Positions 3,263 to 61,956 of a stretch of 64,000 bases of DNA are shown piece after piece. The position numbers and the translations under genes are program-made. The notes under the pieces are model-generated. The model worked only from the letters and a program-made list of their open reading frames with translations. It searched no databases and had not been told where the DNA came from. The stretch spans positions 806,001-870,000 of the forward strand of contig JAKCFJ010000001.1 in NCBI GenBank assembly GCA_025041175.1, given 5' to 3'. The DNA is from Halobacteriales archaeon YIM A00010 (GTDB lineage Archaea; Halobacteriota; Halobacteria; Halobacteriales; Haloarculaceae). How positions within the stretch are numbered: the stretch's first letter is position 1; every line of letters begins with the position of its first letter.

Positions 3263-3352
3263 TACTGTCGGACGGGAGTGGTCGCGTCTCGACTGCTGGT
3301 GAATCGCCAGACAGCAGAGACCGTCGCACGCCGTCCGCCGGCCCGACAGTGT
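3262..3352 (+). repeat. Type-1 inverted-repeat element (copy 1, 91 bp)
   Basis: The element starts ATACTGTCGGAC and ends CCGACAGTGT, with a conserved centre CTGCTGGTGAATCGCCAGACAGCAG that can fold as a hairpin. The right end is imperfect (GTGT for GTAT). Its first A is the last base of the flippase TGA stop. It lies between two convergent genes and has no coding capacity. It looks like a MITE, or possibly a bidirectional terminator-like structure. Confidence 0.8.
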
Positions 3353-20307: not shown

Positions 20308-20404
20308 ATACTGTTGGACAGGGGTGATCGACTATCGGCTGCTGGTGACCCGCCAGACAGCAGAGAGCTATTCGGTCGCACGCCGTCCGCAGGTCCGACA
20401 GTAT
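20308..20404 (+). repeat. Type-1 inverted-repeat element (copy 2, 97 bp)
   Basis: Ends are ATACTGTTGGAC and GTCCGACAGTAT, and the centre is CTGCTGGTGACCCGCCAGACAGCAG. It lies between convergent genes. Its last T plus the following CA form the TGA stop of the minus-strand YdjM-like gene. About 80% of positions match the copy at 59983-60079. Confidence 0.85.
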
Positions 20405-22063: not shown

Positions 22064-22164
22064 ATACTGTCGGACAGAGATGATTGCATATCGGATGCTG
22101 GTGAACCGCCAGAAAGCAGATGGATATTCCGCCGCAATCCGTCCGTGTCTCTGTCCGACAGTAT
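22064..22164 (+). repeat. Type-1 inverted-repeat element (copy 3, 101 bp)
   Basis: It has 16-bp inverted ends (ATACTGTCGGACAGAG and a matching right end) and a centre with GCTGGTGAACCGCCAGA. It lies upstream of the DUF1616 gene, in its promoter/leader zone, so it could affect that gene's expression. Confidence 0.88.
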
Positions 22165-22838: not shown

Positions 22839-22904
22839 ACCGGGGGCGGCCCGATCGGAACCGTCGCACGCCGCGACACCGTTCTCTCATCCGAACAGCT
22901 CATC

Positions 22905-23115
22905 GGGACTGTTGTGGTTCCGTACCGCTGTGGCGACACAGAACAGTTCGTGAACCCACAGAGCAGGCGTCATACTGTCGGTCATCCTTCCGTACACCGG
23001 CAGTGGACGCTTCGGGATCGTGGAGCACGCTCTGGCTGAACCGGCGACCGAGTGGTCACAGACCGATGACCGACAGTATCAGTCAACGACCGTGCCAAAA
23101 CTACTCACAACAGTC
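22905..23115 (+). repeat. Composite repeat: outer arms with a type-2 core
   Basis: The outer arms start GGGACTGTTGTG and end CACAACAGTCCC (12-bp inverted ends). The left arm (22905-22971) and right arm (23080-23115) closely match those at 61194-61399. The core at 22972-23079 is the type-2 element here, but type-1 at the other site. No coding capacity. Confidence 0.8.
22972..23079 (+). repeat. Type-2 inverted-repeat element (copy 1, 108 bp)
   Basis: Ends ATACTGTCGGTCA and TGACCGACAGTAT are a perfect 13-bp inverted repeat. The core includes GGATCGTGGAGCACGC and shares no obvious sequence with the type-1 core. It sits inside a larger repeat at the same position as the type-1 copy at 61261. Confidence 0.85.
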
Positions 23116-23193
23116 CCTATCACTGATCGGACCCTCCGATTCGACCGAGCGTCAAAAAAGTGGACGGTGAGCTGCGTTGCTACTCGTCGGTTG

Positions 23194-33746: not shown

Positions 33747-33846
33747 ATACTGTCGGACAGAGGTGATTGACTATCAGATCTGGTGAATCGCCAGACAGCA
33801 GATAGATATTCTATCTCAATCCGTCCGTGGCTCTGTCCGACAGTAT
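33747..33846 (+). repeat. Type-1 inverted-repeat element (copy 4, 100 bp)
   Basis: The 16-bp ends ATACTGTCGGACAGAG/CTCTGTCCGACAGTAT are perfect inverted repeats. The core contains CTGGTGAATCGCCAGACAGCAG. It lies upstream of the zinc-ribbon regulator (its start is at 33684) and could influence that promoter. Confidence 0.9.
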
Positions 33847-40648: not shown

Positions 40649-40748
40649 ATACTGTCGGCCAGAGCCACAGACGGATTGAGACAGAATATCTATCTGCTGT
40701 TTGGCGGTTCACAGCATCCGATAGTCGATTACCGCTGTCCGACAGTAT
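40649..40748 (-). repeat. Type-1 inverted-repeat element (copy 5, 100 bp, inverted)
   Basis: The ends are ATACTGTCGGCC and GTCCGACAGTAT; the core reads in the opposite direction to the other copies (CAAACAGCAGATAGATATTC on the minus strand). The final T with the following CA makes the TGA stop of the minus-strand crotonase 40748-41539. Confidence 0.88.
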
Positions 40749-43237: not shown

Positions 43238-43710
43238 ACGAAGCTCCCACGAAACGAACGCGAACCAGCTACCGCCAAATTATATAATAATATGTGTGGT
43301 CTGTGGCAGCGAATCGGTGTATCGTCGTTCGGTATGGATCCCAAACTGCAATACGAATGCCTATGAATACACCATTAAAAATTTAAATCAATGGAAATAC
43401 GGCATATCATGTTAAATATCGTGGTCTTAAGTGTACTGTGCAGAGAGCTATCGGTCGATCCGCTGCACACTGTCTCAAAATTATTTATAATTAATTGTAC
43501 TTCAAAACACAGTCTATCGGGTGTGGAATCGTTCGACCGATGGATGCTGATACTGTCGGTCATACGTACGTGACTCGACAGTATCGTTTTCGGGAGCATG
43601 GAGCACGTGCCTGACCGAACAGGCCATCGAGTGTGCAACGATCCATGACCGCAGTGTGAGGCCCGCCTTGGGGTTCACCGGATCGGTGGATCGTGCGCGT
43701 TCCGGTGTGC
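43238..43710. other. AT-rich spacer with a type-2 repeat copy
   Basis: This 473-base gap contains very AT-rich DNA at 43,280-43,500 (for example ATTATATAATAATATG and TTATTTATAATTAATTG), the type-2 element at 43550-43657, and leads into the iron-type promoter at 43,711. No convincing small gene was seen. Confidence 0.55.
43550..43657 (+). repeat. Type-2 inverted-repeat element (copy 2, 108 bp, degenerate)
   Basis: It starts ATACTGTCGGTCAT and ends ATGACCGCAGTGT, with a shared core segment GGAGCATGGAGCACG also seen in copy 1. The right end has lost a C and has GTGT for GTAT. A second internal CGACAGTATC lies at 43577-43586. Confidence 0.75.
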
Positions 43711-47018: not shown

Positions 47019-47389
47019 ATTAGCGCAACAGCAGTTCGGATCTTGTTTCTTGTGGCTCGAATGAGTGGCTCTTCGCCTCGTGTGAGCGTCTAGCCCACTC
47101 CCGCTACCGACGAACGCATCACTGGTTTATATCAAATAAGAGTTATAAATACGCAGAGCGTGATCCGCCGTGGACCTCATCGAATGAACTATTATCTTAT
47201 AAACAATATCTTATTCCCAAACTATCAGTAGAAGGTGTTGTTCGACCGTGCCTGGAGGTTTTTGGGAGTGAACATTCGATCGTCATACTGTCGGTCACAA
47301 TCACGTGAGATCGACGGTGGTCTGTGTCGCGGAGATGGGACGCGTGGTGAACGGGCAACTGCGTGGTCGACGGACCATGACCGACAGTA
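47019..47389. other. AT-rich spacer with a type-2 repeat copy
   Basis: This 371-base gap is AT-rich over 47,120-47,225 (TTATAAATACGC, ATTATCTTATAAACAATATC), a probable promoter for the minus-strand acyltransferase. It ends in the type-2 element 47285-47390. Confidence 0.5.
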
Positions 47390-59982: not shown

Positions 59983-60079
59983 ATACTGTCGGACTGGGGT
60001 GATCGCGTATCGGCTGCTGGTGGCTCGCCAGACAGCAGCTGGCTCGTCCGTCGCACTCCGTCCGCAGGTCCGACAGTAT
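59983..60079 (+). repeat. Type-1 inverted-repeat element (copy 6, 97 bp)
   Basis: Ends ATACTGTCGGAC/GTCCGACAGTAT, core CTGCTGGTGGCTCGCCAGACAGCAG, which forms a good central hairpin. Closest to copy 2 (20308-20404). Confidence 0.87.
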
Positions 60080-61130: not shown

Positions 61131-61193
61131 GGGAACCGACGGTTCCGATCACGGTTAACGGGCACGGTCAGCGATCGCTGGCACGCCCTCATC

Positions 61194-61399
61194 AGGACTG
61201 TTGTGATTCCGTACCGCTGTAGCGAAACAGAACGGTTCGTGAACCCCCAGAGCAGTTGTCATACTGTCGGACAGAGGTGGTTGACTATCGAATGCTGGTG
61301 AGCCGCCAGACAGCAACTGGATAGTCCGTCGCACTGCTTACGCGGCTCTGTCCGACAGTATCAGTCAACGTCCGTGCCGAAAATACTCACAACAGTCCC
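61194..61399 (+). repeat. Composite repeat: outer arms with a type-1 core
   Basis: Left arm (61194-61260) AGGACTGTTGTGATTCCGTACCGC and right arm (61362-61399) ending CACAACAGTCCC match those at 22905-23115 with few changes. The core (61261-61361) is the type-1 element, unlike the other copy. It ends three bases before the NUDIX stop codon. Confidence 0.82.
61261..61361 (+). repeat. Type-1 inverted-repeat element (copy 7, 101 bp)
   Basis: Perfect 16-bp ends ATACTGTCGGACAGAG/CTCTGTCCGACAGTAT; core GCTGGTGAGCCGCCAGACAGCA. It is nested inside a larger repeat at the same position as the type-2 copy at 22972. Confidence 0.9.
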
Positions 61400-61401
61400 T
61401 A

Positions 61402-61956
61402 TCAGAGCGCTCGTGTTCGCCACGCGAGCAGATCCTCCCGATCGCGGGTGTCTTCGGGGAGTTCGGTGAACCACTGCGCCCGGCTGATCTCTCCGTCCGG
61501 ATCGCAGATGTCGGTTTCGAACGTGTTTGCCCGGGCGGCGAACACCGGCATAACGCCCCACGTCTGGTAGCGTCCGTGAGACACCTCTACCCGCGTGAGC
61601 ATGGCCAGCCCGTCGTACGTCACGTCGATTCCCGCCTCCTCTTCGAGTTCGCGCTGCGCGGCGTCGTGAAACGACTCCCCCCTGTCGAGTTGACCACCGG
61701 GAAGAACCCACATATCGACGCCCTCGTGGCGGACGAGAAGGAGCGCGCCGGTCGATCGGTGGACGATCGTGTGGGTGCCGTAGGGGGCCCCAGATCCGGA
61801 GATTCGCTCTGCGAGAGTGCGAAACCGCGATCGACTGACTGATTTGGTTCGGGTGTACTCGAGCGGCTCGCCGTAGCGTTCTATCAGGTGGTGATACGCC
61901 TTCTCAGCGCACCGGGCGGCCTGGTCGGCGAGAAACCAGAGATCGTTGATCGTCAT
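61402..61956 (-). CDS. NUDIX hydrolase
   Basis: 184 residues. The NUDIX box is GGQLDRGESFHDAAQRELEEEAGI (about 91-114), with the expected Gly, Glu and REXXEE-like residues. Upstream, THTIVHRSTGALLLVRHEGVDMWVLPGG is typical. It would hydrolyse a nucleoside diphosphate linked to another moiety; the substrate is unknown. The N-terminal 60 residues form a helical extension of the haloarchaeal type. ATG 61956. Confidence 0.9.
   Translation of the reverse strand: MTINDLWFLADQAARCAEKAYHHLIERYGEPLEYTRTKSVSRSRFRTLAERISGSGAPYGTHTIVHRSTGALLLVRHEGVDMWVLPGGQLDRGESFHDAAQRELEEEAGIDVTYDGLAMLTRVEVSHGRYQTWGVMPVFAARANTFETDICDPDGEISRAQWFTELPEDTRDREDLLAWRTRAL

Follow-up and report, generated by a model that had tools for sequence, protein, structure and literature searches.

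Short inverted-repeat elements nested at one preferred site of another short element in a haloarchaeal genome

Introduction

Two known groups come closest to the elements described here, the MITEs of haloarchaea and the small mobile repeats (SMRs) of Haloquadratum. MITEs by definition share their ends and their target duplication with an autonomous transposon. Among insertion sequences, those of the IS5 family of the ISL2/IS1031 type make a 3-bp TNA target duplication. Nesting has been described in Haloquadratum walsbyi, where the repeats of group SMR-A (HqIRS42, HqIRS43 and HqIRS55) sit inside other mobile elements at sites that they favour (PMC3119063). The initial annotation of the DNA analysed here held that no described haloarchaeal element behaves as its repeats do, and these Haloquadratum repeats make that statement too strong.

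The window, a 64-kb stretch of DNA, is part of the largest contig of a haloarchaeal genome of 5.97 Mb in seven contigs. It holds two composite repeats, A and B, in which similar outer arms enclose different cores. The arms and cores very probably belong to separate small mobile families, with cores inserted repeatedly at one motif of the outer element (called T3 below) and some of the resulting composites then moved whole.

Composite elements in the window

The features of the window are collected in Table 1. The arms of A and B are nearly identical, their cores differ, and both cores interrupt the arms at one and the same base position, just as the initial annotation had it; the cores of A and B are also alike only at their ends, as it had noted. 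Its two core types stand, although the exact limits are 106 bp for type 2 and 99 bp for type 1 rather than 108 and 101 bp.

Table 1. Composite elements and related single elements, with positions in the window
Feature	Position	Strand	Details
Composite A, T3 + type-2 core	22903..23119	+	217 bp; TCA duplication 22900-22902 / 23120-23122
A, T3 left arm	22903..22972	+	ends in TCA (22970-22972), one copy of the core duplication
A, type-2 core, subfamily T2a	22973..23078	+	106 bp; ends TACTGTCGGTCA / TGACCGACAGTA
A, T3 right arm	23079..23119	+	begins with the second TCA copy (23079-23081)
Composite B, T3 + type-1 core	61192..61401	+	210 bp; TCA duplication 61189-61191 / 61402-61404
B, type-1 core	61262..61360	+	99 bp; TCA at 61259-61261 and 61361-61363
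Type-1 element, stand-alone	20309..20403	+	TSD TCA
Type-1 element, stand-alone	22065..22163	+	TSD TGA
Type-1 element, stand-alone	33748..33845	+	TSD TCA
Type-1 element, stand-alone	40650..40747	-	flanks TTA/TCA
Type-2-like element, subfamily T2c, stand-alone	47286..47389	+	104 bp; TSD TCA
Type-1 element, stand-alone, 95-bp form	59984..60078	+	flanks CCA/TCA
Type-2 copy, degenerate	43550..43655	+	71% to the core of A
Type-1 copy, degenerate	3263..3351	+	

The outer arms of both composites form T3, a 108-bp non-coding element with ends TAGGGACTGTTGTG, which was defined by aligning copies in which the arms are joined and TCA or TGA is repeated on either side. A whole-genome BLAST search with the joined arms as query returns ~29 copies with contiguous, core-free arms, and the full-length core-free matches have E values of ~1e-38. 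When the genome is searched by pattern for T3 with its exact 9-bp ends, 21 empty and 17 filled copies are found, while the reversed patterns used as controls for empty and filled T3 give 0 matches each in the same genome. Given these controls and the E values, the arrangement of arms and core is not due to chance. The empty arms and the third core type that the initial annotation proposed to look for are thus both present (21 and 3 copies, respectively), and the numbers of filled and empty copies dispose of the misassembly that it had offered as a refutation, and show that neither composite is an isolated oddity.

Within the filled set, 8 copies contain type-1 cores and 6 contain T2a (type-2) cores, all at one identical site; the remaining 3 of the 17 contain a third, type-2-like core at a second site, a TGA near T3 base 47. 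T3 duplicates a 3-bp target of the same kind as the cores do: TCA or TGA is duplicated in 36 of 44 copies, 15 of 16 composites among them, and CCG in one more. At one further locus, C1:2380150-2380470 (L060), a single T3 carries two insertions: type 1 occupies the usual site and T2a the second.

T3 is itself found nested in T4, a 99-bp family with ends TACTGTCGGTCAGAA (loci L016, L022, L023 and L024). These four copies have a common junction with an imperfect TG/TGA duplication, which marks them as a second amplified composite.

A search for T3 in 6 congeners and 52 other relatives yields nothing except one marginal 38-base match. Two congeners are without composite A in the orthologous intergenic region and have conserved flanking genes; their spacer has diverged beyond base-by-base recognition of an empty site.

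Core families

Each core type is a MITE-like family of its own. A genome search finds core copies with exact ATACTGTCGG ends in at least 158 places, mostly alone. Set beside empty T3, filled T3 shows the exact insertion, ...CG-TCA-GTC... -> ...CG-TCA-[TACTGTCGG...CCGACAGTA]-TCA-GTC..., so that ATACTGTCGG contains one base of the duplication. The ends ATACTGTCGG/CCGACAGTAT of the initial annotation therefore include a real inverted repeat, TACTGTCGG, with the outermost base on each side belonging to the target duplication. The terminal inverted repeats are 12-14 bp long and perfect in good copies, and the elements, at 94-108 bp, are non-coding and below the size of a transposase gene.

Most of the 115 catalogued core copies have the 3-bp TCA/TGA duplication, which also flanks most stand-alone cores; occasionally the duplication is TAA/TTA instead, and a minority of copies are flanked by TA/TA. 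Variants with ends TACCGTCGG / CCGACGGTA and TA/TA flanks lie at C1:1320989, 1915845 and 2381737 and at C3:58151. There are also head-to-tail pairs of elements with TCA or nothing between them (C1:1005191-1005407 and C1:922004-922199). At C2:332780-332925 (L336), an apparent chimera of two type-2 subfamilies (type-2/T2a) adjoins a T3 right arm, the left arm being missing.

Within the family, 11 of 146 genomes contain elements with core ends. At 80 loci from Halobellus, Natronomonas, Halococcus and uncultured haloarchaea, the lengths are mostly 78-79, 98-100 or 107-109 bp, and the perfect duplications are TCA (34) and TGA (30). The preferred lengths recur across haloarchaea with unrelated interiors and are spaced by about one or two helical turns (L168-L247). 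These elements may be haloarchaea-wide orphans of fixed sizes (~78, 98 and 108 bp) with unrelated interiors and an unrecognised transposase, with gene conversion after insertion having additionally carried their cores between arms here, although we regard this as unlikely. A plasmid search gives two type-1 matches and none for T3 or type 2; at NC_014299.1:129273-129373, on a plasmid of Halalkalicoccus jeotgali B3, there is a type-1 element that is 78% identical. Viral contigs have no match to the T3 and TIR patterns.

Target preference

Only stand-alone insertions with duplications, 61 in number and none of them inside T3, were used to derive the target motif. The base before TCA is C, T or G and never A, and the bases after it are mainly G (64%), T (48%) and C (48%), which gives YTCAGTC as the preferred motif of stand-alone cores. 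The common T3 site is CGTCAGTC, at about T3 bases 67-74, with TCA at 68-70. Among genomic TCA sites, this one reaches the 98.7th percentile in the target model; none of the five in T3 scores higher, and the second-used T3 site ranks second. In a leaner model the main site has a weight of 6.4 (~6x the average TCA), and no other T3 site exceeds 0.82.

Because the common site is the only strong match to the motif in T3, the coincidence of different cores at one base is best explained as independent insertion at a sequence hot spot. This was one of the options in the initial annotation, and it is the best supported of them, by the empty arms, the TCA/TGA duplication and the match to the stand-alone motif. 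Some ~2-4 insertions are expected at the main site if ~15% of TCA/TGA sites tolerate insertion, an assumed figure, and fewer than 1 if all of them do. We infer 3 to 5 separate acquisitions of cores at the T3 site; set against the ~2-4 expected with the assumed figure, this number requires no homing mechanism, and set against fewer than 1 it speaks against simple motif preference.

Stand-alone cores are oriented at random. The insertions in T3 all have one relative orientation, a result that counts against the insertion model, since random orientation would produce it with a probability of only ~6% for five events. Targeting of hairpins was considered and rejected: at 62 stand-alone targets, stems centred on the site do not exceed in length those at random TSA sites (p 0.94).

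Histories of cores and arms

Part of the present distribution comes from movement of whole composites. An arm change, G71C, is common to nine type-1 composites and is in no empty T3, and the core and arm distances of type-1 composites correlate (rho 0.48); most of them thus come from one founder and moved as units. Four T2a composites have arms 97-99% and cores 98-100% identical at four locations, and their different flanks and individual duplications show unit transposition. The modular composite suggested in the initial annotation accordingly fits some copies, with these 4 type-2 composites having moved whole, and not all.

If the same explanation is extended to every copy, there would be one founding composite per core type, from which all others were amplified. 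The two groups just described would be as expected, yet this is very improbable given the copies outside them. The core of B differs from other type-1 cores in arms at 11 or more of 98 bases, and its arms, without G71C, are of another T3 lineage, so that both parts lie outside the clade. The arms of A and of the copy at 764386 have 10-15 differences from the T2a clade or from each other, with only 0-5 in the cores, and another core type is present at the second T3 site. Copies such as A would also be obtained if T3 arms exchanged cores, or received copies of them, through homologous recombination or gene conversion via the common arms or the inverted repeats. A shares its core with four other copies, with 11-14 differences between its arms and theirs; in comparison with the copy at 1917984, 0 of 106 core bases and 11 of 105 arm bases differ (Fisher p 0.0004). 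Random empty T3 copies differ by a mean of 8.6%, and the arms of A are equally distant, which indicates that the identical core entered different T3 copies separately, possibly by a second insertion and possibly by gene conversion. Exchange is thus possible for this copy, in which the core matches other copies but the arms do not. Also favouring exchange, T2a cores inside arms form a tight clade and the matching arms do not, the type-1 composite at C2:411082 has a divergent core together with the G71C of eight others, half of the informative pairs of T3 sites fail the four-gamete test, and C2:332830 resembles a type-2/T2a chimera. However, linkage between arm sites does not weaken as the sites lie further apart (rho 0.03 and -0.06, neither significant), so that repeated mutation may account for the four-gamete failures. 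The column 74 arm change that marks the four-copy T2a clade is only 4 bases from the junction and is absent from A, and insertion with TCA duplication requires no exchange. As a general explanation, exchange is therefore improbable, and the lack of linkage decay leaves recombination at the common ends, as put forward in the initial annotation, unsupported.

It is hardly credible that the outer repeats are not mobile at all and instead act as functional RNA or as structured sites whose stem-loops are exchangeable. Whole elements do fold well as single strands (z ~-5.6 and -5.5 for T3 and the core of B, respectively), but the terminal repeats account for all of the signal, the interiors having z values of -1.1, +0.3 and -0.6. 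Among 27 T3 copies, no pair has a compensatory change, and Rfam gives no match.

Proposed mechanism

The preferred explanation, repeated insertion into T3 followed by some movement of whole composites, builds on features that are directly visible in the genome: empty and filled states, duplications, the motif, separate core lineages at one site and copies of whole units. The arms and cores would be distinct families of gene-free, inverted-repeat mobile elements of 95-108 bp. A DDE-type transposase acting in trans would presumably mobilise them, making 3-bp staggered cuts at TCA/TGA with YTCAGTC as its preferred target; both this enzyme and its nature are inferred. T3 would offer it one strong copy of the motif, CGTCAGTC, and because T3 carries the preferred motif, type-1 and type-2 elements would have landed there more than once, with TCA duplicated each time. 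Since the outer ends of T3 stay intact, some filled copies could then have been mobilised as whole units of 206-218 bp.

Loci with PF01609 and PF13358 were scanned for core and T3 ends and also for any inverted ends. It counts against the proposal that no transposase with matching ends is present at 30 of the 38 PF01609 (IS4/IS5 type) matches or at the 7 PF13358 (IS630 type) matches. Pairs of ends 400-4000 bp apart in the retrieved DNA are merely neighbouring small elements. An autonomous partner was not found among the 80 loci of other haloarchaea, and single ends in four relatives belong to 78- or 108-bp elements or are unpaired matches, probably due to chance. At C1:2562700-2563770 (L075), a broken IS630-like transposase gene contains an inserted T4 element, flanked by duplicated TCA.

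Comparison with known systems

With haloarchaeal MITEs, the elements have in common that they are short (under ~600 bp) and non-coding, with inverted repeats, fixed-length target duplications, many copies and nesting. They match the description of MITEs except for the partner transposon, none being found at the PF01609/PF13358 loci examined. The TNA form of the duplication is like that of ISL2/IS1031-type IS5 elements, but no retrieved IS5-type transposase locus here has the ends of the elements, and we take the resemblance as a lead only.

With SMR-A, the common features are a length of ~110 bp, prominent inverted repeats, the absence of genes, tens of copies, a transposase that is not known, strong target preference and frequent nesting at one preferred place (PMC3119063). 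Two features differ. SMRs are reported without target duplication (PMC3119063), whereas the elements here have a 3-bp TCA/TGA duplication that is evident against empty copies; SMRs prefer palindromes near the ends of IS605-type/PATE elements (PMC3119063), whereas the targets here are YTCAGTC and are not centred on palindromes. For both reasons we do not class the elements as SMRs, much as their behaviour resembles that of SMRs. Plasmid PL47 has no TSA-flanked element with such inverted ends.

One target present in many copies, some empty and some filled, amounts to a natural experiment, which yields the insertion site, duplication and motif of a putative transposase without bench work. It also suggests that some elements reported as duplication-free may make a short, easily missed 3-bp duplication. 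Overall, the case is a tidy but ordinary one, in which mobile DNA is nested within mobile DNA at a preferred site, and is of moderate to low surprise.
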